Shown: positions 1 through 20,071 of the stretch, in pieces | How positions within the stretch are numbered: the first letter of the stretch is position 1 | Layout of the letters: every line of letters begins with the position of its first letter | Origin: a virus | IMG/VR virus record: IMGVR_UViG_3300009422_001821 | Coordinates: 1 to 20,939 of that record | DNA length: 20,939 bases | Reading direction: 5' to 3' (one strand) | Position numbers and translations under genes: made by a program | The notes under the pieces: generated by a model | Database searches by the model: none | The model's input: only the letters and a program-made list of their open reading frames with translations | What the model was told of the DNA's origin: nothing

Positions 1-509
1 GAATAACTTTCTCTAAAGTTCACAGTCATCCAATATGCATATAATTTTGAAATAGCATATGGCGATCTTGGTTTGAAAGGAGTGTCTTCATCTTGCTTGC
101 CATTTACAGAACTGTTGCCATACAGTTCAGATGTACTTGCTTGATAAAATTTTGTATTGGGTGAATTTTCTTTGAGTGCTGTCAGTATATTCAGCACACC
201 TAGAGAGTTTGCTTCTGTTGTGACCATGGTCAAATCCCAACTTGCTTTCACAAAACTCTGTGCCGCTAAGTTGTAAAATTCATTTGGCTTCAGTGTTTTT
301 GCTAAATGGTTCATTGCTGAACAGTCAGTGATATCTCCAGTTAATAATTCAATATCATTTTCAATGCCGAGATATCTTAGGTTTTCCAGGTTAGGATTGG
401 AATATCTTTTTATTAACCCATAAACCTTGTAATCATTTTCTAATAAATGTTTGGATAGGTATGGACCGTCTTGTCCGGTCACACCGGTTACGAATGCTAC
501 TTTTTTCAT
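1..509 (-). CDS. gmd: GDP-mannose 4,6-dehydratase, N-terminal half (runs off the left edge)
   Basis: This would convert GDP-D-mannose to GDP-4-keto-6-deoxymannose, the entry step to GDP-fucose, GDP-rhamnose or GDP-perosamine. I translated it by hand from the ATG at 509; 169 codons are present against about 345 usual, so the C-terminal half lies beyond base 1. Seen: the Rossmann motif GVTGQDG at residues 9-15, the family signature QASTSELYG near 123-131 (Thr126, Glu128), and the YAISK active site with Tyr151 and Lys155, followed by LYAYWMTVNFRES, a near-diagnostic GMD stretch. It is the last visible gene of the left minus-strand block and has its own 82-base upstream gap with a promoter-like element. 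No Shine-Dalgarno sequence precedes the ATG. The family call is very secure; whether the missing half is intact cannot be seen. Confidence 0.95.
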   Translation of the reverse strand, partial: MKKVAFVTGVTGQDGPYLSKHLLENDYKVYGLIKRYSNPNLENLRYLGIENDIELLTGDITDCSAMNHLAKTLKPNEFYNLAAQSFVKASWDLTMVTTEANSLGVLNILTALKENSPNTKFYQASTSELYGNSSVNGKQDEDTPFKPRSPYAISKLYAYWMTVNFRESY

Positions 510-4110: not shown

Positions 4111-5243
4111 CTTATACTGCCTCCTTGATCCCAACATTTATTAAATGTCTGTCCACATGTAAAAGCACATTCAAACAGTCTACCGTCTTTAAACTCTTTT
4201 TTACTCCAACTGTCTACTAGATCAGGCCAAAACTTGTTTTCGAATATTTCTATCATAGATTTGTTTTGTACTTGTAAGTTTTCTTTTCCATATTTTTCAT
4301 ACATCATTATTATTTGATTATTATACTTGTTTTCTCCCAACGGGTCAAATGATCCAGGATCTGCTTCCTCATGGAATCGTGCATCATAAAGGTTATGTTC
4401 AAAGAAATTACAAGGCATTACTATACCTTCTGCTGTTATTACCACTTTATTACCTAGTAATGCATCACAGGTAATATCTGTTTGTTTAAAGTAATCTACC
4501 ATTGAGCCGTACTTTTCTTTTACCTCATTAACTCTGCTAACACTGTCGTTCCTATATTCTGGATTATCTGGCATCTGCAGATGTCGTACTGTTTGACCTA
4601 TGCTGTTCTTAACAGGCCATTTTTCCATAGGTTCTAGTTTCTTCTGGTCAAAGAATCTTCCTGTTTTGCGTACAAGGCATTCAATGAAGTTATATTCTTT
4701 TGCTAGTTTTTTAACAGTTTCGATTTGATGTTCATTGTGTTTAAACACAATAAAGTTCCATTTGGCTCTTCCGCCTGCGTTGATAAAATTTTTAGCATTT
4801 TGTATTGCATGTTCGTATCTCACTCCTACTCTGTACAGATGATTAGTGTCTTCTAATCCATCAATGCCAAAGTCAATTTGTCCATAGCCGTTCATAATTT
4901 TTGCAATCTCTTCCCAAAAACCTTCTTTACGTTTGGCACCGTTGGTGTGTATGTATAACCACAAGTCTGACCTTTGATCTCTAAACCATTGTAATATTTC
5001 TAAAAACTGCGGGTGAACAGATGGATCACCATAACTGCCACAGAAAAATATCTGTTTGCATCTATCTAATATATCTTTAGTAAATGCTTTTTTGATCCAT
5101 TCAATGTCCATATCAACTAATGGCATGTGAGGATTTACTTTGCCACCATTAATGTTTCGGGGACACTGTGGACAGGCGGCATTACATCTCGTTGTAATTT
5201 CTAGTTGCCATTCAGTGATTTCATCTAAATTAAAGTTTATCAT
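4107..5243 (-). CDS. Radical SAM enzyme with SPASM-like C-terminal cysteines
   Basis: A 378-residue iron-sulfur enzyme. The radical SAM CxxxCxxC is TRCNAACPQC, with Cys20, Cys24 and Cys27 ligating the SAM-binding [4Fe-4S] cluster. CGSYGDP (about 68-74) corresponds to the family's GGEP motif. The C-terminal part carries Cys259, Cys278 (in GIVMPC), Cys359, Cys363 and Cys370, a spacing suggestive of a SPASM or twitch domain with an auxiliary cluster. SPASM enzymes modify peptides or, less often, sugars and other small molecules. No precursor peptide gene is visible next to it. Its neighbours are an epimerase and an SDR, so a sugar or glycan substrate is a guess. It needs a low-potential electron donor; the ferredoxin at 18119 is one local candidate. 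Confidence 0.85.
   Translation of the reverse strand: MINFNLDEITEWQLEITTRCNAACPQCPRNINGGKVNPHMPLVDMDIEWIKKAFTKDILDRCKQIFFCGSYGDPSVHPQFLEILQWFRDQRSDLWLYIHTNGAKRKEGFWEEIAKIMNGYGQIDFGIDGLEDTNHLYRVGVRYEHAIQNAKNFINAGGRAKWNFIVFKHNEHQIETVKKLAKEYNFIECLVRKTGRFFDQKKLEPMEKWPVKNSIGQTVRHLQMPDNPEYRNDSVSRVNEVKEKYGSMVDYFKQTDITCDALLGNKVVITAEGIVMPCNFFEHNLYDARFHEEADPGSFDPLGENKYNNQIIMMYEKYGKENLQVQNKSMIEIFENKFWPDLVDSWSKKEFKDGRLFECAFTCGQTFNKCWDQGGSIR
4120..4126 (-). promoter_or_regulatory. Strong Shine-Dalgarno that fixes the SDR start
   Basis: AAGGAGG on the minus strand, nine bases before the ATG at 4110 and inside the last codons of the radical SAM gene. It rules out the 27-base longer reading from 4137 and indicates a bacterial-type ribosome. 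Confidence 0.85.
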
Positions 5244-5971: not shown

Positions 5972-6601
5972 TTATATATAGAATGTTCTATCGCTAGTCA
6001 AACTGTCCTGGCTGTTGACATCCACTGCACGTGGTTTAACCACTTCTATTTTTACATACTTGTCTTTGACAAACATGTCTGATGCTGTGATACCATCTTC
6101 ATGAGCACCTTTAATTAAGCGTTGGGCCGCATGCGGTTTAATAACATATCCATATGTGCCCATCAGTTGATTTTCGCCTTTGCGTATGTTGACAAAATTC
6201 TCAACAAATGGATCTTGACCCATATATGGATCTTCTTCAAATCTGTATCCGTCAAGATGTAAAACATCTTGGAAGTCTTGATCATATGAATCACTTACCA
6301 CGCGTGAATCATGTTCCAACACCACAATTGGCTCATCCAGTTCGATACATTTTTTCCATGCATGGTAGTGTGAAATCATACAACCACGGACACCACCTTT
6401 TTGCCATTTTATTTTGTACAGTTTAGGTCCCGGTAGATAAGGTTTAAGATTTTGTTCTTGAATAAATTTGTCAGCACGTGAAGGCGTAAATCCTTCCATC
6501 AGCCATGCATCAAGACCGTGTTGTCTTGCTGTGAGTTTACACTCTAGTGCAGAGTCCACAGTAGATTGAACTTCTTTGAGATATATTATAAATGCTTTCA
6601 T
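5972..6601 (-). CDS. GT25-like (LPS-type) glycosyltransferase
   Basis: A 209-residue protein starting MKAFIIYLK. The family-25 signature GCMISHYHAW (73-82) is followed by VVLEHDS (Glu96-His97-Asp98) in place of the usual EDD. GT25 enzymes transfer galactose or glucose to lipooligosaccharide or to protein glycans. The open frame extends to 6772, but the first 57 codons overlap the upstream gene and look like a shadow. The ATG at 6601 forms an ATGA junction with the stop of the GT-B gene, so I use it. The replacement of the middle acidic residue by His is unusual and may alter metal binding. Confidence 0.75.
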   Translation of the reverse strand: MKAFIIYLKEVQSTVDSALECKLTARQHGLDAWLMEGFTPSRADKFIQEQNLKPYLPGPKLYKIKWQKGGVRGCMISHYHAWKKCIELDEPIVVLEHDSRVVSDSYDQDFQDVLHLDGYRFEEDPYMGQDPFVENFVNIRKGENQLMGTYGYVIKPHAAQRLIKGAHEDGITASDMFVKDKYVKIEVVKPRAVDVNSQDSLTSDRTFYI

Positions 6602-7575
6602 TTTATCATTTGCTCCACGTGTGGTTTGAATCTTTTCCATACAGTGCCATCGCGTACTTCTTGCAATGTCCAGTTGGCATAAGCAAGATTGTGTAGCCAC
6701 TGTGTGCGGTCTGGCATCTGTGGATTTTCTATGTCTTTTAAATTGTTTGATCCTATGTCCCATGCAAGACACAAATCAGAAGTCATAAACACAGGCACAC
6801 CATATGTGGCGGCATCAACGGCCGCAGTAGAATTGTGTGTGATTAGGCAGTGAATATTATTAAGTTCTTCTAAGAAAGTCCATCTATAACCATAAAACAT
6901 GCCACCACCTCTGGTCATGTCTGCAATTTTTATTTGCGGATGTCTTTTTTTAATATCTTCTGCACATTTGTCAGCATGGTTAGGATGCGGTCGCAACATT
7001 ATTGGTCGGTCGGTGACTCCTTTTAACTGTTCTACAACCTCGTCAATCCATACGTATGGATCTTTTTGCGCCATAGACCAATTGTCTTTTGGTTGAGAAC
7101 ACAGCAGAATATACTTGCCTTCTTTGCGCCATGGACGATCTGGTATGTTGAATTCGGATTTAATTTTTTGCCATCTATCACCATCACAATCTGCATTCAA
7201 AAAGTTTCCATTACGCATAGGCGACCATAGAGCACACCTAAAGTAGTGTTTGTTTGGGTCTGTTGCTCTGTTGCCAAAGGATGTCCACAGTCCTCCGTCG
7301 AACACAATAGGCACTCCGCCAGTCTGTTCCATGTGCTGTCTGATCTGTCTACGATTACCTTTTAAAAATGATCCAGCATTGTTAGGACCATAACCAAAAT
7401 GCACAGCAACTTTTTCTTTAGGAGGTCCCATCCAACGTTCAGCATCACCTTTACCTTCAATCCAAACAGACTCGTCACCAGCAGATGCAATGCCATCGCG
7501 CCATGCTTTCATCATTTCAAAGGAAGCGCCTTTGCCTCTTCTTTTCACAGTGTTTCGGAATATCTCAACTTTCAT
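6598..7575 (-). CDS. Capsule-polysaccharide-type GT-B glycosyltransferase, paralog A
   Basis: A 325-residue soluble protein related to capsule/Kdo-transferase-like (KpsC/KpsS-type) proteins. Seen: RPWRKEGKYILLCS (147-160), TDRPIMLRPHPN (188-199) and the nucleotide-sugar-binding-like THNSTAAVDAATYGVPV (246-262), followed by a C-terminal WLHNLAYANWTLQEVRDG. The same block order recurs in the plus-strand genes at 8415 and 9190. I start at the ATG at 7575; the longer frame to 7614 would run through the palindromic promoter-like element and into the divergent gene. The donor sugar is not determinable. The RPHPN element is kept here but altered in the other two copies. Confidence 0.7.
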   Translation of the reverse strand: MKVEIFRNTVKRRGKGASFEMMKAWRDGIASAGDESVWIEGKGDAERWMGPPKEKVAVHFGYGPNNAGSFLKGNRRQIRQHMEQTGGVPIVFDGGLWTSFGNRATDPNKHYFRCALWSPMRNGNFLNADCDGDRWQKIKSEFNIPDRPWRKEGKYILLCSQPKDNWSMAQKDPYVWIDEVVEQLKGVTDRPIMLRPHPNHADKCAEDIKKRHPQIKIADMTRGGGMFYGYRWTFLEELNNIHCLITHNSTAAVDAATYGVPVFMTSDLCLAWDIGSNNLKDIENPQMPDRTQWLHNLAYANWTLQEVRDGTVWKRFKPHVEQMIK

Positions 7576-7581
7576 TGCACT

Positions 7582-7593
7582 GTATTTAAATAC
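7582..7593. promoter_or_regulatory. Perfect 12-base palindrome between divergent starts (bidirectional promoter candidate)
   Basis: GTATTTAAATAC is its own reverse complement and lies 8 bases before the plus-strand ATG (7602) and 6 bases before the minus-strand ATG (7575). Read either way it gives TTAAATAC, close to the TATAAATA late-promoter element of T4-like phages (established for that group). Neither gene has a Shine-Dalgarno sequence, so both messages would be nearly leaderless. It could instead be an operator. Confidence 0.45.
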
Positions 7594-7601
7594 GTACTCA
7601 A

Positions 7602-8411
7602 ATGGCAAGGTCAATAACGGTTATTACAACTTTTTCTTCTACCGGTTGGGATGAGTATGGCAAACGCATGGTAGAAACTTTTGTAAAATATTGGCCAAAA
7701 GAAATAAAATTAAAAATTTATTACGAAGTTAAACCTGATGTAGATTATGGTGATCAAGTTGAATGGATTGATCTCAATGCAGTGTGTTCTGATTTAGTTG
7801 CATTCAAAACAAAACACAAAGATAACCCACATGCAAAAGGTCATAAAATAGGCAGTGACCTAAAACGCAAAGGATCATATTTGTGGGACGCAATCAAGTT
7901 CGCACATAAATCATACTGTGTATCACACGAGGCTCTTAATAGTTCATCAGATTTAATAGTCTGGTTGGACGCGGATGTTGTTACCCATAATCCTATTCCA
8001 GCAGAATTTATTGAGAGCCTCTTACCCCAAGACAATTACTGTGCTTACTTAGGCAGACAAAAAATTTATCCTGAATGTGGATTTGTAATCTATGACACAA
8101 ACAGTTCATACAACGAACAGTTTATGAAAGATTGGCAAGAACTGTACAACTCTGATAAAATATTTGAGTTGGTGGAATATCATGATTGTATTGCATTTCA
8201 AACAATAAAAGAAAAGTATGAAGCACAAGGATTAAAGTCACACAATATATCTAAGAATCATCCGCATCGACCTGGTGTGCATGTGTTTATAAATTCTCCC
8301 CTAGGTGAATATATGGATCACCTTAAAGGCAAACGCAAACAAGATGGACATTCAAAACGCACTGACATCTATATTCAACACAACAACGACTACTGGAACA
8401 AAATCCAGTAA
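7602..8411 (+). CDS. GT-A fold glycosyltransferase
   Basis: A 269-residue soluble protein. ITVITTFSSTGWDEYG begins a nucleotide-sugar-transferase fold and VWLDADVV supplies the DxD (Asp123, Asp125) that coordinates metal and the donor diphosphate. CGFVIYDT after it is typical of the acceptor-side strand in these proteins. First gene of a three-gene plus-strand island; the next starts 3 bases after its stop. The upstream spacer contains the palindrome at 7582. Donor and acceptor unknown. Confidence 0.75.
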   Translation: MARSITVITTFSSTGWDEYGKRMVETFVKYWPKEIKLKIYYEVKPDVDYGDQVEWIDLNAVCSDLVAFKTKHKDNPHAKGHKIGSDLKRKGSYLWDAIKFAHKSYCVSHEALNSSSDLIVWLDADVVTHNPIPAEFIESLLPQDNYCAYLGRQKIYPECGFVIYDTNSSYNEQFMKDWQELYNSDKIFELVEYHDCIAFQTIKEKYEAQGLKSHNISKNHPHRPGVHVFINSPLGEYMDHLKGKRKQDGHSKRTDIYIQHNNDYWNKIQ

Positions 8412-9206: not shown

Positions 9207-9996
9207 AACAATGCGGCCTGCTACAGAAAAAATAATGAATTCATGGGCCAAGGGTTGTGATGGTACTATTATTAATCCTATCAAAGATGATCAAGACATG
9301 CCTTATGACACTTATGCTTTTTTAGGAGTTTTACGAGGCTCTGGCGATATGATTAAAAAATGCATACAAAAAAATTATGATTACTATTTTATTGATCATG
9401 CCTATTTTGATGCAGGACATAACAAAAAACCATCATGGTACAGAGTAACCAAAAATGATCACGTGCAAAATAAGTTGTTGGATTGCACCTCAGACAGATG
9501 GCACAAATATTTTAACAAATCTATAAAACCATGGCGCACCGGCAACAAAGTAATAGTGTGTCCACCCACAGGTGCAATGGAGTGGATGTTTGATACTCAT
9601 GATTGGCTCAACACCACTGTAGATGCGTTAAAACAGAAAACTGACCGTGAAATTGTGGTGAGAGACAAGCCAATGAATCCACAAGTAAAACGCATTGACG
9701 GAGTAACAACCATTAATGGGTTTGTGAAAACAACACAAGACAACCCACTGTCAGAAGATCTTGCTGATGCATATTGTGTAGTGACCCTTAACTCAGGTGT
9801 TGGTGTGACTGCTATAATAGAGGGAATACCAGTTGTGTGCGGTCCTGAATGTGCGGCATTCCCTGTAAGCAACACACTGGATGCTATAGAAGATTTACAA
9901 ACGTTTGATAGACAGCCATGGTTGAACAGTTTGGCCCACAGTCAATTTACATTAGAAGAAATGGCGTCTGGGTACGCTTACAGTGTCATTGAATAA
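9190..9996 (+). CDS. Capsule-type GT-B glycosyltransferase-like protein, paralog C
   Basis: A 268-residue third member of the family at 6598 and 8415. Matching blocks are KPWRTGNKVIVCPP (113-126), KTDREIVVRDKP (150-161), SEDLADAYCVVTLNSGVG (188-205), AIIEGIPVV (208-216) and WLNSLAHSQFTLEEMASG near the end. Paralogs B and C resemble each other more than either resembles A in length and in the DLA-A-CVVT block, suggesting a tandem duplication. The 3' end overlaps the convergent AsnB-like gene by 19 bases with no terminator between. Function as for paralog B, by family only. Confidence 0.65.
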   Translation: MMKCVRTMRPATEKIMNSWAKGCDGTIINPIKDDQDMPYDTYAFLGVLRGSGDMIKKCIQKNYDYYFIDHAYFDAGHNKKPSWYRVTKNDHVQNKLLDCTSDRWHKYFNKSIKPWRTGNKVIVCPPTGAMEWMFDTHDWLNTTVDALKQKTDREIVVRDKPMNPQVKRIDGVTTINGFVKTTQDNPLSEDLADAYCVVTLNSGVGVTAIIEGIPVVCGPECAAFPVSNTLDAIEDLQTFDRQPWLNSLAHSQFTLEEMASGYAYSVIE

Positions 9997-11705
9997 CGCT
10001 GTGCCCAAGAACGCATCATCCAAGAAATAACTCTTGTTTTTTTATTTTTCCAATTGTCCATAGACACTGTGTTTTTTAAACAGTCATCTGCATTCATATA
10101 TGACATTGCAAAATCATCCAAATCTTTGTTTGTGCCCAGCCAATAGATTAAAGGCACAGTCCAACCTGTTTTCATTTTGTTTATGATGTAATCAGGCATG
10201 TGGCCTTTGTATGCAATTTTGCTTAATAATTTTGTATCAGATTTGTCTTTGCCTATCTTATGATCAGAATGAATGTCCATGCAGTATTTCATAAAGCGTT
10301 GAGTGGCCAAAGGAAATCTGCCCTCCATGCCAAATTTCATTCCAAACTGATCATTGCGTGAAAAGAATTCTTCAGGCACCTGCGTGATGCAATCAATAGC
10401 CATATAAGAATTGATAGGATCTTCTGGATTCCAAAGTTCTTGTGGTATAATCTTACACAGTTCGCCATGTATTGCTTTTGCATCGACTTTTTTACTCAAT
10501 TGCACAGGACGTTTTATTCTGTGCATCCATCGCCAAACACATTCTTCAAAAGATGTAGGCAAGTTGTTTTTTAGTTTCCAATATTTGGGATAACCTCCTA
10601 ATAATTCGTCACCCATATCTCCAGCCATGGTTACTACTACATCGTGTTGACTCAGCACTTTGTTGGTGTGATAATACATTGGCATACTCATATTATACAC
10701 TGGTTGCTCCATTGTAAACATTGAGTCATCCCAACAGGACTTGACCGTCTCAGGAGTAACTTGAATAGGATGATGATTGAAGCCATAGTGATCAGCAAAC
10801 CATTTTGCATGTTTGGCATCATCGTTATGATCCTCGCCTATAATAACATTAGGATTCATTTCATTTGTGAAAGAATCAACAGATGGTAGGATTTTGTTTA
10901 ATTCGTGTGCTATCATGGTTGAATCTAAACCGCCTGATAGAAACACACCAAACTTACGCATACCCAGTGTACACATTTTTACAGTCTCATGCACTTCTTG
11001 TCTGAATTCTTCTGGATCAAATCCTTTCTTTGAAGTAGGTTTAATAACCCATCGCGAGGTTCTAGTAAATTTTTGTTTGTAAATGTCATACACCAGAGTC
11101 TGTCCTGGTAAAACTTTTTTAATGCCTTTGAACATTGTGTTGGCAGAGATGTTAATACCTGAATAACTCATTGACGCACTTGCAAATTCATCAATACATC
11201 TAGCGCCTGGTACTTTATCGATCATGCCTTTAATCTCAGAACCAAAAACTAGTCCGTCGGATGTTTCTGCATAAAACAGAGGTTTTATTCCCGCATGATC
11301 TCTTGACAGTGTAATTGTTTTTTGTTCTTTATCATAGTATGCATAGGCATGCATGGAATCAATGATGTTGCTATTGACTATGTCCACATAGAATGAGTCT
11401 AATAAAAATGCCAACAATTCTGTATCGCATGTAGTTTTGGGTATCCATCCACTGTTCCTATACGACCATACCACATGATCGTAGTTGAATATTTCTCCAT
11501 TGTAAATTAGAACATTGCCTTTGTCGGTGTGCCAAGGCTGTTTGCCAACTTCAGGTTCGGAAGTAATAGATAACAGATTGTGTCCTAAAGTCACGTGATC
11601 GTCATACCAAATGTCTGAACCATCTGGGCCTCTATGACTGCAACTATCTATATAGGATCTAATAAATCCGGGGTCACGTTTTGTTATGCCGTATATACCA
11701 CACAT
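9978..11705 (-). CDS. Asparagine-synthase-like glutamine-dependent amidotransferase (AsnB type)
   Basis: A 575-residue two-domain enzyme. The N-terminal Ntn-glutaminase starts MCGIYGI; Cys2 becomes the nucleophile after Met removal, which requires the start at 11705 and not 11729. RGPDG, YNGEIF (68-73) and the CDTE element complete the glutaminase site. The synthetase domain has the PP-loop SGGLDS (257-262) and AGDMGDELLGGYPKYW, a variant of the usual SGEGSDELFGGY. It transfers glutamine ammonia to an ATP-activated carboxylate. In polysaccharide loci and marine phage genomes such proteins often amidate sugar acids instead of aspartate; the context favours that, but the substrate is not visible. 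Its start is only 12 bases from the divergent oxygenase start. Confidence 0.9.
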   Translation of the reverse strand: MCGIYGITKRDPGFIRSYIDSCSHRGPDGSDIWYDDHVTLGHNLLSITSEPEVGKQPWHTDKGNVLIYNGEIFNYDHVVWSYRNSGWIPKTTCDTELLAFLLDSFYVDIVNSNIIDSMHAYAYYDKEQKTITLSRDHAGIKPLFYAETSDGLVFGSEIKGMIDKVPGARCIDEFASASMSYSGINISANTMFKGIKKVLPGQTLVYDIYKQKFTRTSRWVIKPTSKKGFDPEEFRQEVHETVKMCTLGMRKFGVFLSGGLDSTMIAHELNKILPSVDSFTNEMNPNVIIGEDHNDDAKHAKWFADHYGFNHHPIQVTPETVKSCWDDSMFTMEQPVYNMSMPMYYHTNKVLSQHDVVVTMAGDMGDELLGGYPKYWKLKNNLPTSFEECVWRWMHRIKRPVQLSKKVDAKAIHGELCKIIPQELWNPEDPINSYMAIDCITQVPEEFFSRNDQFGMKFGMEGRFPLATQRFMKYCMDIHSDHKIGKDKSDTKLLSKIAYKGHMPDYIINKMKTGWTVPLIYWLGTNKDLDDFAMSYMNADDCLKNTVSMDNWKNKKTRVISWMMRSWAQRYSMTL

Positions 11706-11717
11706 GTAAATATATGT
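11706..11717. promoter_or_regulatory. 12-base spacer between two divergent start codons
   Basis: Only GTAAATATATGT separates the ATG of the AsnB-like gene from that of the oxygenase-like gene. The plus-strand reading contains GTAAATA five bases before its ATG, a weak late-promoter match. Any promoter for the minus gene must lie within the plus gene, or that gene is transcribed by read-through. This is positional evidence only. Confidence 0.3.
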
Positions 11718-12326
11718 ATGGCAGGCCAATACTTCCTAGATAAAATACTGACATCTCCTGTGGTGCAAGATCCATGGCAACATCAAATTATAGATGATAC
11801 TATTCCCACAGACGTGTTTGGTAGATTGCAATCTCAATGTGAACAATTTCTCAACATGGACAACAATGGCGACTTAAGATTCATATTTCCAGATGAATTT
11901 GATCAGTATGGCATCGATTTGTATAATGAAGTTTATGATATAGGTAAAAAAATATTGGATAATGCAAAAGCATTGGTCAAAGACTTATATACAAATCCTA
12001 GATGGTACGATAGTTTAACTGTGTACGCACACATTTCTATAACACCGCCGTTGCCTTATAAGTTTGATATTCATGAAGAAGGACTGGAAAAAATTTGGTC
12101 GGCTGTTACATATGTGACACCAATAAAAAACATTGGCACAAAAATGTATTCGACAAAAAGCAAGTCTAGTTTTGTAGCAGAAGCACAGTGGAAACCAAAT
12201 TCAACATTTGTTTTTTGTGGCGAAAAAGGCAAAACTTGGCATTCATATGAAAGCAGTGAATCAACTAACAGAATAACGTTGAATTACTTTATTATGAGTG
12301 ACAAACGAGGCAAGCGTTTTATTTAG
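11718..12326 (+). CDS. 2OG-Fe(II) oxygenase-like protein
   Basis: A 202-residue protein with a C-terminal half like the double-stranded beta-helix of prolyl-4-hydroxylase-type 2-oxoglutarate oxygenases. Candidate iron ligands are His119 in DIHEEG (His-x-Glu in place of the commoner His-x-Asp) and His175 in KTWHSYES. Arg185 in NRITLNYFI is the likely 2-oxoglutarate carboxylate binder. VTYVTP and IGTKMYS between them are typical strand motifs. Such enzymes are frequent in marine phages. The start at 11718 is chosen because the longer frame from 11634 would cover the divergent AsnB start. It ends 8 bases inside the convergent FkbM gene. Substrate unknown: protein side chain or glycan. Confidence 0.7.
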   Translation: MAGQYFLDKILTSPVVQDPWQHQIIDDTIPTDVFGRLQSQCEQFLNMDNNGDLRFIFPDEFDQYGIDLYNEVYDIGKKILDNAKALVKDLYTNPRWYDSLTVYAHISITPPLPYKFDIHEEGLEKIWSAVTYVTPIKNIGTKMYSTKSKSSFVAEAQWKPNSTFVFCGEKGKTWHSYESSESTNRITLNYFIMSDKRGKRFI

Positions 12327-15025: not shown

Positions 15026-15745
15026 TTATACAGGATTTGCATGTGCTGTCAATACATTACCACCTTGCACATTGAGATAGTTGTGATCTTCCCACTGATG
15101 ATGTAACACTTGATACCATCCCCATTCAGCACCCATAAGATTTTGCTCGTTAAAAAGTTTTTCCACATTCTGTAATTTGTATCTAGGATGAAATATTATG
15201 TGGTCCCAAAGATATGGTCCAGGACATCTTTTACAGTCTTGATATGTGTGTATCTTTAATGGAGCATCAACATCAACACCAGGAGCACTTCCTGCAATGC
15301 CAATAACAGTTTGATCTTTCACAGTTTTTTCCAACAAAGGCATAAAATCTTCCTTTAAACTGAGTAAAGTGTCATATCTTAACTTTATTATAGTTTTGTA
15401 TTTTTCTGGAAGTGTTTTGGTCAACCAATAGTGTGCAAGTGTCTGTTTGGAATTGTGTTTCGTTTTTTCATACAATCCTGTTCTCTTGTAAATTTTACCT
15501 ACAGCAGGTTTTGTGTATCTGCGCCATATATGGCAGTCTGGTTTGTATTTTGTTTCTGTAAGATTATGATAGTTGTAAACAGGCTCTTCAAAAAAACGAC
15601 AATCTTCTACTTCTGGTGCTTCATAACCTTGCCACTGCATGTAAAAGGTATCAAATGGAAAAACTTTTTTTGCAATTTCTAATGCTTTTTTGTATCCCGG
15701 TCGAGCAAGTCCTGAGACGCAAACAGCAATCTCATCAGATTTCAT
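15026..15745 (-). CDS. WavE-like putative glycosyltransferase
   Basis: A 239-residue soluble protein. The N-terminus IAVCVSGLARPGYKKAL and the central TIIKLRYDTLL (Arg123, Asp125) resemble WavE-type LPS-synthesis proteins and other uncharacterised GT-A-like proteins. The motif PYLWDHIIFHPR (178-189) follows. I place the start at the ATG at 15745, which shares its A with the TAA of the RuBisCO-like gene (TAATG); the frame is open to 15763 but that would overlap 18 more bases. The one-base overlap suggests translation coupled to the RuBisCO-like protein, so it could transfer the sugar that protein helps make. Confidence 0.6.
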   Translation of the reverse strand: MKSDEIAVCVSGLARPGYKKALEIAKKVFPFDTFYMQWQGYEAPEVEDCRFFEEPVYNYHNLTETKYKPDCHIWRRYTKPAVGKIYKRTGLYEKTKHNSKQTLAHYWLTKTLPEKYKTIIKLRYDTLLSLKEDFMPLLEKTVKDQTVIGIAGSAPGVDVDAPLKIHTYQDCKRCPGPYLWDHIIFHPRYKLQNVEKLFNEQNLMGAEWGWYQVLHHQWEDHNYLNVQGGNVLTAHANPV

Positions 15746-16935
15746 TATTTTATTAGGCCCCATTTAGCAATTGCTTGTTCATACTCATCTCCGCCAGTTT
15801 TGTCTACTGATTGGCGCATGGCTTTTGCTCCTGCCAAAGTGCCTCCTGGATGTCCATGTATTGCACCACCTACATTTGCAATAAAATTATTGCCAAACTG
15901 TCTCACATTTGCTTGTACCAACCCAGGATGCATTCCACAACTCAGTGCTGGCACGACATTGTGGGTGTGCAGTGTAGAAATAGTTTTTTTAAGAACGTCT
16001 TCATCATCACTAAGATATCCTCCCCACATGCCTGCGTGTATGGTATCAACTCCTTGCATTCCAGCCAACTGACAGATAACGTTCCAGTCTATACCAAATG
16101 CATGTCTAGAATCTGTAATAACTTTGTCTCCTGACTTCTGAAAGTGTATAAACAACGGAAGATCAAGTCTACGTATTGCTCCATATACTCCTAGTCCTGA
16201 CCAAAAGTTTACGTGTACAGCATTTCCGCCTAGTTCAGAAACCCTAGTGGCTCTTTTTAATATGTGATCATGATCACCATTGATGCATACAGCATAAACA
16301 ACTTTTTTACTCTGTTTTGCCATCCAGTCTGCAATCAGTGGCACTCTTTCTTCTATTGGACAAAAACTTGGATTACTCATAATTTCATCTTCTTTGATAA
16401 AATCACATCCACCGTCTACAAGTTCTTTCACCATATCTAACAGTGTGTTTGCACTCATGCCTGTTTTTGGTTTTACAATAGCACCGGAAAATGGTTTGTC
16501 ATACTGTCCAGTGTATTCTCGCATTCCGGATACACCATATTTTGGACCTAAAAATTTAGATTTTATCTCTGCAGGAAATTCAAGGTCTATCAATCTACAA
16601 GAATCAAATGTGTCTATATCCATTTGTCCGCCCATCAACTGACACAGCAAATGACTTATTCCATCACCTTCCCAATCTGTGTTTATAATAGGAAAAGCAA
16701 TTTTTACTTTACCTTCAGTTAGGCCTTTCAAATTATCTTTTTCGTGAACAATTACACAAGATGATTTTTCGAAAAGTTCTTCAGTTTCCCAACGATTCCG
16801 CACGTTTGGATTCCCTACACTTTGACCAATTGCTAGATCCCATGAAACTTTTCTTAGGTCGGCATTTCTTGATTTCATGAAATATGTTGCAATAACATAT
16901 TTGCTTTTGTCTATGTTAGGATTGTAAAATTGCAT
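15745..16935 (-). CDS. RuBisCO-like protein (form IV-type, not a carboxylase)
   Basis: A 396-residue RuBisCO large-subunit homolog. In spinach numbering these are kept: Lys175 and Lys177 (Lys155, Lys157 in VKPKTG), the carbamylated Lys201 with Asp203 and Glu204 (KEDE, 181-184), His294 (264), His327 (300), Ser379 (332) and the Gly403/404 region (VGGAIHGHPGG). Lost: Arg295 (Phe265), His298 (Ser268) and loop-6 Lys334 (Tyr307); the Asn123 region does not align. Mg2+-enolisation chemistry is therefore plausible but RuBP carboxylation is not. Known form IV proteins are enolases, isomerases or decarboxylases of phosphorylated keto sugars or methylthio sugars. It is coupled by TAATG overlaps to a nucleotidyltransferase before it and a GT after it, which points to sugar-precursor synthesis. 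Its substrate is unknown. Confidence 0.9.
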   Translation of the reverse strand: MQFYNPNIDKSKYVIATYFMKSRNADLRKVSWDLAIGQSVGNPNVRNRWETEELFEKSSCVIVHEKDNLKGLTEGKVKIAFPIINTDWEGDGISHLLCQLMGGQMDIDTFDSCRLIDLEFPAEIKSKFLGPKYGVSGMREYTGQYDKPFSGAIVKPKTGMSANTLLDMVKELVDGGCDFIKEDEIMSNPSFCPIEERVPLIADWMAKQSKKVVYAVCINGDHDHILKRATRVSELGGNAVHVNFWSGLGVYGAIRRLDLPLFIHFQKSGDKVITDSRHAFGIDWNVICQLAGMQGVDTIHAGMWGGYLSDDEDVLKKTISTLHTHNVVPALSCGMHPGLVQANVRQFGNNFIANVGGAIHGHPGGTLAGAKAMRQSVDKTGGDEYEQAIAKWGLIK

Positions 16936-18118: not shown

Positions 18119-18466
18119 TCAATCTTGCCATGGCTCATCTATTAGTAATTCTTTCTTATCCTCTTTGTAGTTTTCTGGTGAGTATTCGGTGGATTCTGGC
18201 AATGGGTCTTTCTTTTTAGTAATCACAGGCCATATTTCTGAACGTTCTGCATTGAACTTCATCCAATATTTTAATTCTGTGCCACCAACTGTGTCAGGAG
18301 CAATAGCATCGACTGGGCATTCAGGAACACATACTCCGCAATCGATACATTCGTCTGGATTAATGACTAACATGTTTTCCCCTTCATAGAAACAATCCAC
18401 AGGACAAACTTCTACACAGTCAGTGTGTTTGCATTTGATACATTCTTGGCCTACTACATAAGTCAT
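18119..18466 (-). CDS. fdxA: Seven-iron ferredoxin (FdxA type)
   Basis: A 115-residue [3Fe-4S][4Fe-4S] ferredoxin closely matching Azotobacter FdI and alphaproteobacterial FdxA. By that alignment Cys9, Cys17 and Cys50 bind the 3Fe cluster and Cys21, Cys40, Cys43 and Cys46 the 4Fe cluster; Cys12 and Cys25 are the free ones. The conserved FdxA tail [14 protein letters not shown] is present, followed by an acidic extension. It carries low-potential electrons in the cytoplasm. An AAAGGAT ribosome site lies about 11 bases before the ATG. It is out of place in a glycan cluster; possible clients are the radical SAM enzyme at 4107 or an enzyme outside the window. Its strong conservation contrasts with the divergent neighbours and suggests recent acquisition from a host. 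Confidence 0.93.
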
Positions 18467-18491: not shown

Positions 18492-19217
18492 TTATAAATT
18501 GGGCCATCGTAATCGACAATATTTTTGTATATGACTGTCTTTCCGATGCTTTCTGCCACCTGCAGGATGTATAAAATATGCGGTTTTGTTGTTGGGAACC
18601 AACTTGTCTCGCAATTTAAAGTTCCATTTTTGTGACACTTTTTCGTGTTTTACTCCAGAAGATATAAATGCCCAATTGATAATTTGTCCGTCATCCCATG
18701 AATCTAACATTCTAAAATTTTTAATGTAAGGTCTTAAACATCTTGCACTGTGTTTGGTTAACCCAAAAACCCCTGTTTGGAAAAATCTTTCTACACACTG
18801 TTTAGGATCAAGATTTTTGTAAAGACTGTGTGTGATATTTGCTCGCCACCATTTATCACTACTTGCGTTATATTTGGGATATATGGCCGTTTTCATGGAC
18901 ACAGGATTTGAATGTTCTTCGAAAAAATTTGGCACAGACTCATGTACAATTACATCTGAATCAACATGCAAAATTTGTTCATATTTGTTCCACCAAGCAT
19001 CATTTAAAATTAAGTCAAATCTTTCAAACACTGGATGTTTTATGTTTTCTAGTTTAGGTTCTGTAATTACCACATGATCAATATTATATTTTTTACAGTA
19101 TTCACCAATGCTGTGCGTTGAATACTTTACTATGTCAGATCTTGTTAAATTATTAAATCTTGGGTCGTCATATTTGTTAGAGTCTATATCGTATTGTATT
19201 ATTGCGTTTTTCATCAT
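18492..19217 (-). CDS. GT-A glycosyltransferase-like protein (family 8-like)
   Basis: A 241-residue soluble protein. ILHVDSDVIV (82-91) holds the DxD (Asp86, Asp88), preceded by a nucleotide-binding region ending VVITEPKL. VERFFQTGVFGL and SWDDGQIINW follow in the order seen in GT8-like enzymes. Two adjacent ATG codons (19217, 19214) are possible starts; GGAT about 5 bases upstream is a poor ribosome site. The 5' leader contains the GC-rich hairpin at 19228-19250. It follows the tRNA-like gene on the same strand, so read-through from the strong promoter at 19351 could transcribe it. Confidence 0.7.
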   Translation of the reverse strand: MMKNAIIQYDIDSNKYDDPRFNNLTRSDIVKYSTHSIGEYCKKYNIDHVVITEPKLENIKHPVFERFDLILNDAWWNKYEQILHVDSDVIVHESVPNFFEEHSNPVSMKTAIYPKYNASSDKWWRANITHSLYKNLDPKQCVERFFQTGVFGLTKHSARCLRPYIKNFRMLDSWDDGQIINWAFISSGVKHEKVSQKWNFKLRDKLVPNNKTAYFIHPAGGRKHRKDSHIQKYCRLRWPNL

Positions 19218-19227
19218 GTTTTTATCC

Positions 19228-19250
19228 GGGGGACGCCTAGTACGCCCCCC
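19228..19250 (-). other. GC-rich RNA hairpin between the tRNA-like gene and the next CDS
   Basis: On the minus strand GGGGGGCG (19250-19243) pairs with CGTCCCCC (19235-19228) around a 7-base loop TACTAGG: eight contiguous pairs including one G-U. On the plus strand that pair would be an A-C mismatch, so the structure belongs to minus-strand RNA. No T-run follows (GGATAAAAAC), so it is not a standard intrinsic terminator. It may serve 3'-end processing of the tRNA-like RNA, partial termination, or control of the downstream gene, whose ATG is 10 bases away. Very unlike its AT-rich surroundings. Confidence 0.6.
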
Positions 19251-19267
19251 TGACTAGGATTGTATAG

Positions 19268-19343
19268 TACGCCGAGTGAGACTCACACTCACAAGCCGAA
19301 GCACTGGTCTTAAGACCAGCGTGTCTAATTCCACCATCGGCGC
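19268..19343 (-). tRNA. Aberrant tRNA-Leu(UAA)-like gene, all three canonical loops degenerate
   Basis: Read on the minus strand: 7-bp acceptor stem (GCGCCGA/UCGGCGU, one G-U), U8-G9, a 3-bp D stem GUG/CAC, G26, anticodon stem CUGGU/ACCAG, a class II variable arm GC-UUCG-GC, a 5-bp T stem GUGAG/CUCAC and discriminator A. Long variable arm, A73 and the GAAUU..AGA D-loop flanks identify a leucine tRNA. The D-loop (GAAUUAGA) lacks the G18-G19 segment. The anticodon loop is only six bases (CUUAAG) and can close to a UUAA tetraloop. The T-loop is UGUGAGU rather than UUCRANY. CCA is not encoded. Stems are intact, so this is either a pseudo-tRNA under residual constraint or a specialised tRNA-like RNA. 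The whole 134-base gap between genes (19218-19351) is taken up by it, its promoter and the hairpin. Confidence 0.75.
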
Positions 19344-19350
19344 ATAAACT

Positions 19351-19378
19351 ATTATACAATATAACCTTTTGTTGTCAA
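19351..19378 (-). promoter_or_regulatory. Perfect-consensus sigma-70 promoter of the tRNA-like gene
   Basis: The minus strand has TTGACA (19373-19378), a 16-base spacer and TATAAT (19351-19356). Both hexamers match consensus exactly. The expected start is about 7 bases on, at the first bases of the tRNA-like gene (19343-19344). The promoter overlaps the end of the SGNH coding sequence; its -10 includes that gene's stop codon. It is by far the best sigma-70 promoter I found in the window, implying strong transcription by a bacterial polymerase. Confidence 0.8.
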
Positions 19379-20071
19379 ATAGGGAATCAAAACTTCTTTG
19401 GTATATGTTGCATGACCTTCGGTGGTTGGGTGAAGTGTATCGTCTACTAATGTAGCGTCTTTGTTACTACAGTATTCATAACAACCTTGTTGTGTTGCAA
19501 ATGTGTTCCAATCTATTTGATCAAACAGATATTGGCATGATCGTCTATCAGCAAGTTGAAATACTTCGTCCATATATGGCATCATAAAATACCTAATTTT
19601 ATGTTTTTCTAAAAACCACTGTGTGCGTAAAACATGTTCCAGTGTTTGTATCTGTCCCCATGTGTCATCATAGTAATGTTTGTAATAGTCCTTGGCACTT
19701 TTCCAACCATGATTAGTGATGATCCAATCGCCTTCGTGATCATCATTTATAAAATTAGTAGGGTTACTCATACAAACTTCTGTGTTTTCCGGCTTCCAGT
19801 CTAGACCTCTATCATCTTTGTGCCAATAATAATCCCATCGATTGTATCCGCTCCACATTATGCCTACTAACATGTCTTCGGCTGAATGTCCTTGCTTGAG
19901 CAGTCTATCAACTTCGTAAATTATACTGCGTGATATCAAACCGTTGCCTTGACTACCCAAACCTTTGGATATCATAGGAATATTAATGTACCTTTGTAGA
20001 TGTCTTGGCCAAGTGTCAATGTGGTCTGATATACATTCTGCAAAACTACATCCGCTGGTTAATAATATCAT
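19352..20071 (-). CDS. SGNH hydrolase-like protein (GCSF type)
   Basis: A 239-residue protein with block I TSGCSFAE (nucleophile Ser9), LGSQGNGL about residues 38-45 for oxyanion-hole Gly and Asn, MWSGYNRWDYY in the third block, and a C-terminal DDTLHPTTEGH with Asp211 and His214 completing the triad. No signal peptide. Unlike the SGNH protein at 592 the whole triad is present, and the two are only distantly related. GCSF-type members are frequent in marine phages and in polysaccharide loci (family knowledge). A likely role is removing or transferring acyl groups on a glycan. The ATG overlaps the upstream small ORF's stop (ATGA). Its final codons double as the promoter of the tRNA-like gene. 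Confidence 0.8.
   Translation of the reverse strand: MILLTSGCSFAECISDHIDTWPRHLQRYINIPMISKGLGSQGNGLISRSIIYEVDRLLKQGHSAEDMLVGIMWSGYNRWDYYWHKDDRGLDWKPENTEVCMSNPTNFINDDHEGDWIITNHGWKSAKDYYKHYYDDTWGQIQTLEHVLRTQWFLEKHKIRYFMMPYMDEVFQLADRRSCQYLFDQIDWNTFATQQGCYEYCSNKDATLVDDTLHPTTEGHATYTKEVLIPYLTTKGYIV

Follow-up and report, generated by a model that had tools for sequence, protein, structure and literature searches.

The window, a 20.9-kb virus fragment from IMG/VR (20,939 nucleotides), carries on its minus strand an upstream gene, a tRNA-like RNA, a short hairpin element and the first gene of an operon (Table 1). The RNA starts with G1 at position 19343 and reaches A73 at 19268, and the trinucleotide CUA follows at 19267-19265. 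Read from position 19343 downward, the part from acceptor to anticodon arm is GCGCCGA-UG-GUG-GAAUUAGA-CAC-G-CUGGU-CUUAAG-ACCAG, and the part from the variable arm to the 3' end is UGCUUCGGCUU-GUGAG-UGUGAGU-CUCAC-UCGGCGU-A-CUA.

Table 1. Features of the locus and of the operon behind it, in window coordinates; L002 is the closest orthologous locus.
Feature	Position	Strand	Basis or remark
Upstream gene, 239 aa, PF19547 (DUF6071)	19352..20071	(-)	common to window and L002
Sigma-70-type promoter TTGACA-16-TATAAT	19351..19378	(-)	12/12 consensus matches; -10 ends 7 nt before G1
tRNA-Leu-shaped RNA, predicted non-decoding allele of phage tRNA-Leu(UAG)	19265..19343	(-)	ARAGORN, comparison with L002, fold, pair count
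D loop GAAUUAGA, G18-G19 deleted (relatives: GAAUGGUAGA)	19324..19331	(-)	comparison with relatives
Anticodon arm CUGGU-CUUAAG-ACCAG (relatives: CUGGU-CUUAGGA-ACCAG)	19304..19319	(-)	comparison with relatives
T loop UGUGAGU (relatives: UUCGAGU), U55 and C56 lost, GUGAGU tandem made	19281..19287	(-)	comparison with relatives
3' element CCUAGU-CA-GGGGGGCG-U-ACUAGG-CGUCCCCC	19228..19258	(-)	covariation; model R1, 52.3 bits
First operon gene, 241 aa, glycosyltransferase-like	18492..19217	(-)	position and distant PHROG match, no Pfam match
Ferredoxin-like gene	18119..18466	(-)	in the surface-sugar operon
RuBisCO-like large-chain gene	15745..16935	(-)	PF00016, E = 2e-41
Asparagine-synthase-like gene	9978..11729	(-)	in the surface-sugar operon

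A sequence-only reading of this stretch had described a tRNA-Leu shape with fully paired stems, and our analysis bore this out. In the acceptor, D, anticodon and T stems, 20 of 20 positions are paired. Minimum-energy folding of the RNA yields the cloverleaf (-32.6 kcal/mol, z = -2.92, with 4 of 200 shuffled sequences folding equally well), and since an orthologous tRNA-Leu gene lies at the same place in relatives, the structure is more than a chance fold. ARAGORN found the shape at 19267-19343 and assigned no identity to it, returning 'tRNA-???' with a two-letter anticodon. Rfam gave no tRNA match to the RNA, even when the stretch was searched alone at E<=10; the gathering threshold of RF00005 (29 bits) was not reached, whereas the normal orthologues score 55.8-56.8 bits.

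The loops, as had also been noticed from the letters alone, are rewritten. The D loop lacks its GG and the T loop its UC, and thus both pairs of elbow bases (G18G19 and U55C56) are absent from the window RNA; both are present in L002. The anticodon arm, CUGGUCUUAAGACCAG, is a perfect 16-nt palindrome, and its loop CUUAAG has 6 nt instead of the 7 nt needed for a readable anticodon. To these changes we add the loss of CCA: the 3' end reads ACUA where relatives have ACCA, and the remaining family members encode CCA. The 6-nt loop, the ARAGORN call and the missing Rfam match all agree with the earlier suggestion of a non-decoding RNA and, judged by its sequence, the window RNA is not a working decoding tRNA.

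L002 has the same upstream gene as the window and a normal tRNA-Leu(UAG) at 4370-4451, with D-loop GG, anticodon loop CUUAGGA, T loop UUCGAGU and CCA. The two loci are identical in the 17 bases that precede the tRNA and in 40 bases downstream of it, and the upstream genes share 89% amino acid identity (48/720 nucleotides differ, dS 0.15). The same normal gene was found in L035 and L038-L041, giving six relatives with a functional-type orthologue. A normal tRNA-Leu at this place in related genomes had been named in the sequence-only reading as evidence against itself; because such genes do occur in these six loci, the window allele is derived and private. The GG-less D arm had no close copy in IMG/VR, and the exact allele is present in one record only. 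A 16-mer gave twenty IMG/VR matches, which were mostly unrelated and about as numerous as the chance level estimated for a collection of this size. Among named phages, nucleotide and protein searches with the window and with two proteins returned no relative.

In L010-L012, the downstream operon is about 95% identical to that of the window and stands without upstream gene, tRNA and element, so the module is not essential there. Upstream gene, tRNA and element are cleanly present or absent at an ATGA start/stop overlap (window 19217 and 20068-20071; L010 at about 6001), a pattern between relatives that suggests exchange of the whole as a cassette.

Compared with L002-like relatives, the private changes are the deletion of GG, UUAGGAACC to UUAAGACC, UUC to UGU and CCA to CUA; the sole variable-loop difference from L002 is common to L038 and L040 and is therefore not private. 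In repeat tests that were chosen post hoc, with the sequence already seen, and that are suggestive only, the change to UUAAGACC was found to make the 16-nt palindrome (2 of 534 arm variants with one deletion plus one substitution are perfect palindromes), UUC to UGU makes the GUGAGU tandem (a repeat of this length or longer results from 9 of the 54 adjacent double changes), and CCA to CUA makes GGCGTACTA, an exact copy of the 9-mer GGCGTACTA in the downstream element. Template switching in replication can build or keep perfect RNA stems by mutation alone (PMC8794818). The loop changes of the window probably amount to about four events, several of them copied from neighbouring inverted or direct repeats. 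It had been argued that random decay would hit the stems too. For the window allele alone this argument is weak: the probability that all stems are missed relative to L002 is about 0.04-0.06 (0.06 for four events, 0.007 for seven), and because the events are few and some are apparently repeat-copied, the intact stems say little about selection.

These observations bear on the possibility that the window holds a private pseudogene, in which a dispensable tRNA-Leu is decaying and the stems are intact because the decay is recent and template switching between local repeats alters loops while sparing or even improving stems. The normal orthologues in six relatives, the small number of events that suffices, the palindrome and the repeat copying, the loss of CCA and the single occurrence of the D-loop allele in IMG/VR all fit this explanation, which we regard as possible though on balance doubtful. 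It is at odds with the promoter region, flanks and element, which are unchanged relative to L002: across 97 stem and flank sites there are zero changes (P about 0.001 at the divergence of the neighbouring gene), although the flanks may be conserved for the element alone. A sequencing or assembly artefact in the metagenomic contig appears improbable. The allele does come from a single record and its changes are located in repeats and palindromes, but the neighbouring ORFs are intact and collinear with those of relatives at about 95%, the flanks are exactly those of L002, and change of this kind is seen independently in another locus, L042.

In each of the ten distinct members of the family, the tRNA start is preceded at 6-7 nt by a -10-like box; in the nine besides the window, this box reads TATAAT, TACAAT or, in L042, TATATT. 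From this spacing we infer that transcription starts at or next to the first base of the tRNA. The 3' element begins 6 nt past the CUA of the window and forms an 8-bp covarying hairpin, the loop of which is complementary to the preceding CCUAGU. Among 8 distinct element sequences, 100% of the hairpin cells are paired, 4 of the 8 pairs have changed on both sides (shuffles: 1/500), and CCUAGU and ACUAGG are invariant. With R1, the covariance model of the element, the module loci and no others were retrieved, scoring 52-60 bits; no other match exceeded 15. When IMG/VR was scanned with the element alone, 11 loci were obtained, each with a tRNA-shaped RNA ending a few nucleotides upstream. Relaxed element patterns revealed no element in IMG/VR that lacks a tRNA-like RNA, the extra chance matches having neither, and the element pattern had zero matches in GTDB genomes. 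Altogether, 12 loci share the tRNA-like RNA and the element, 2-8 nt apart and about 40 nt before an ATG. We defined a cis leader module by the -10 spacing, a covarying element 2-8 nt after the 3' end of the RNA and a nearby ATG, and the window has all three.

In the window, the ATG of the first operon gene follows 10 nt after the hairpin. Across the loci, the start codon lies about 40 nt after the element start, although the downstream genes vary (HAD-like, sugar-transferase-like and others). A classical terminator was rejected as a reading of the element, as there is no T-run. An H-type pseudoknot was also considered; no nucleotide separates ACUAGG from the 3' hairpin strand, full co-formation of the helices is improbable, and alternative hairpins or loop pairing seem likelier.

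The anticodon loop has its normal 7 nt in six of the 12 loci (L002, L035 and L038-L041) and deviates in the other six. Besides the window, L042 has a 6-nt loop (CCAAAA) together with a GG-less D loop and the T loop UACCCAAU. In L045 and L046, which are identical to each other, the loop is AUUACU (6 nt), and in L044 and L043 it is shortened to 5 nt (CUUAA and CUCGA, respectively). The ARAGORN call for L043 is tRNA-Ser(CGA), in which the closing pair is mismatched. A covariance-model check, which had been recommended beforehand, graded these RNAs: RF00005 does not match the window or L042, and it gives 32.8 bits for L043, 39.9 for L045/L046 and 42.0 for L044, all below the normal genes. L043-L046 retain CCA, GG and a UUCRA loop. 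Homologs with broken stems had been expected to speak against a maintained shape; the stems of the window, L042 and L045/L046 are complete (20/20 pairs), while L043 and L044 have one acceptor mismatch each (19/20) and fold no better than shuffles.

The loss of loops with retention of stems is thus seen beyond the window. L042 is very diverged and lacks the elbow bases, but its minimum-energy fold is a perfect cloverleaf (z = -2.95) and its stems are compensated; this compound state, the same as in the window, argues against a private pseudogene. A search for compensatory stem changes with free loops had been suggested for an alignment of homologs. Across the module set, ten pair positions have changed on both sides, although this covariation may date from a time when the genes were still decoding. 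Moreover, loss of the anticodon loop recurs at the tRNA-Leu gene and was seen at none of the neighbouring tRNAs, which also disfavours a private event. The other tRNA matches in the 15 searched records (n = 36, 52-76 bits, detectable tRNAs only) include no deviating loop; 6/12 against 0/36 has a probability of 8e-5 if the loci are independent and 5e-4 with near-duplicates roughly removed, values that are optimistic because of shared ancestry and because undetectable tRNAs are uncounted. Among the tRNA genes of related records are those for Thr, Ala and Ser and, in some, Glu. The best reading of these comparisons is that the tRNA-Leu has repeatedly lost decoding while persisting as a structured RNA.

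The module-bearing records are T4-like marine phages. L044 lies in G016, a record of 108 kb with genes for a T4-type portal, major head protein, terminase, UvsX, single-strand binding protein and an SbcC-like protein. Genes for UvsX and a virion protein are also present in G005, a relative of the window at 95%.

What all members share is the distance between promoter and tRNA, the acceptor and T stems together with U72 and A73, the element and a place in front of an operon. Decoding is not among the shared features, and we therefore favour a role as a leader. We put at about even the chance that the window RNA is a non-decoding tRNA-Leu(UAG) allele heading a conserved leader module, with the cloverleaf kept at least partly as a structured 5' domain. 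Transcription would begin at or beside tRNA base 1, so the tRNA-like fold would form the 5' domain of the operon transcript, where it might be trimmed by tRNA-processing enzymes or merely cap the 5' end. The downstream hairpin would then be a protected 5' end or a translational control site of the operon mRNA. Such a job would need the acceptor/T stack and the element, not decoding, so that the anticodon loop would be free to vary and could be lost repeatedly; in the window allele, D loop, T loop and CCA would have gone in addition. T-loop bases and CCA are normally used by RNase P and in tRNA maturation. The window and L042 both lack the T-loop bases, and only the window also lacks CCA, which counts against the leader reading; the window allele may have moved further towards plain loss, and decay alone is the chief rival explanation.

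The sequence-only reading had proposed a non-decoding tRNA mimic. The non-decoding character and the kept stems stand; the context, with promoter, 3' hairpin and operon head, points to a leader instead. One form of the mimic, a decoy that titrates host tRNA-targeting nucleases or toxins, or an RNA altered to resist their cutting, seems to us improbable. Phage tRNAs are reported to escape tRNA-targeting defences through changes in their anticodon loops (PMC10264068); the loop altered here is the usual target of such nucleases, and the window has a strong promoter. However, decoding is retained in those tRNAs but should not be possible with loops of 5 or 6 nt, such as that of the window, whose length is wrong for it. 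A decoy would also be expected to keep the recognised loop, and the constant linkage to the downstream element and operon head would be left unexplained.

The other form of the mimic, a leucyl donor outside the ribosome, comparable to the tRNA-Gly species of staphylococcal peptidoglycan synthesis, we consider very improbable. The non-proteinogenic tRNA-Gly of Staphylococcus aureus is likewise a tRNA shape withdrawn from decoding with conserved bases replaced, but these RNAs are chargeable donors that escape EF-Tu (PMC9976931), whereas the window RNA has neither the LeuRS contacts nor an encoded CCA. Charging had been called conceivable, since A73 is kept and LeuRS does not need the anticodon (PMC9976931). 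In E. coli, G18G19, G18:U55, G19-C56 and U54:A58 are leucine identity elements (PMC9976931); the window allele lacks G18, G19, U55 and C56, and LeuRS charging is therefore unlikely for it, while L043-L046, with CCA, GG and the UUCRA loop, might be charged. A scan of ten window proteins revealed no transferase of the aminoacyl-tRNA-dependent kind.

The window RNA shares locus, stems, A73, promoter region and 3' element with the L002-type tRNA-Leu(UAG) and differs from it in lacking G18-G19, U55-C56, the 7-nt anticodon loop and CCA. The nearest described situation for the leader module is that of the manA and wcaG RNA motifs (RF01745, RF01761), structured 5'-UTR RNAs before sugar and exopolysaccharide genes of marine T4-like phages (PMC2864571). 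The module differs from these in beginning with a tRNA-like domain and in having another element, and the two covariance models had no match in the window or in six related loci scanned. RNA C and RNA D are small T4 RNAs of unknown function (PMC9697503), which are likened to the window RNA by description only, with no sequence or structural relation established. The literature searched held no description of the module, which is not proof of its absence. More tentatively than for the window allele itself, we propose a composite class of leader RNA in T4-like marine phages, in which a non-translational cloverleaf, with or without elbow and transcribed from its own first base, would be followed by the covarying hairpin and would control or protect a surface-sugar operon mRNA.

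The reason why phages have tRNA genes is a matter of debate. In the family, the possible conversion of a tRNA gene into an mRNA leader can be put to the test: a tRNA joined to a conserved element at an operon head would have lost decoding repeatedly, and the other detected tRNAs of the same records look normal. L042 and the window provide natural cloverleaves that keep their stems without the D/T-loop elbow.

Similar shapes were observed elsewhere. In L017 (about 9778-9870 (+), with a copy in L019), tRNA-Ala and tRNA-Phe of an unrelated tRNA-rich phage flank an RNA of tRNA-Leu shape that lacks GG and has only 6 nt in its anticodon loop; the minimum-energy fold of this RNA is the cloverleaf (z = -4.08), and ARAGORN missed it. 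L020 has a GG-less tRNA-Leu-like RNA (about 50-140 (-)) whose anticodon and T loops both measure 6 nt and whose fold is not better than that of shuffles. A sequence search found no relatives of the L017/L019 and L020 RNAs. Beside the tRNA array of L019, a 557-aa protein (6069-7742 (-)) has a Ro/TROVE RNA-binding look by eye and no NCBIfam match.

The RuBisCO-like gene in the sugar operon of this T4-like phage is also present in L010, L038, L040 and L041, and it had no match in named phages. The nearest solved relatives of its product are archaeal RuBisCO and DK-MTP-1-P enolases; by alignment, KEDE retains the catalytic lysine and acidic residues.
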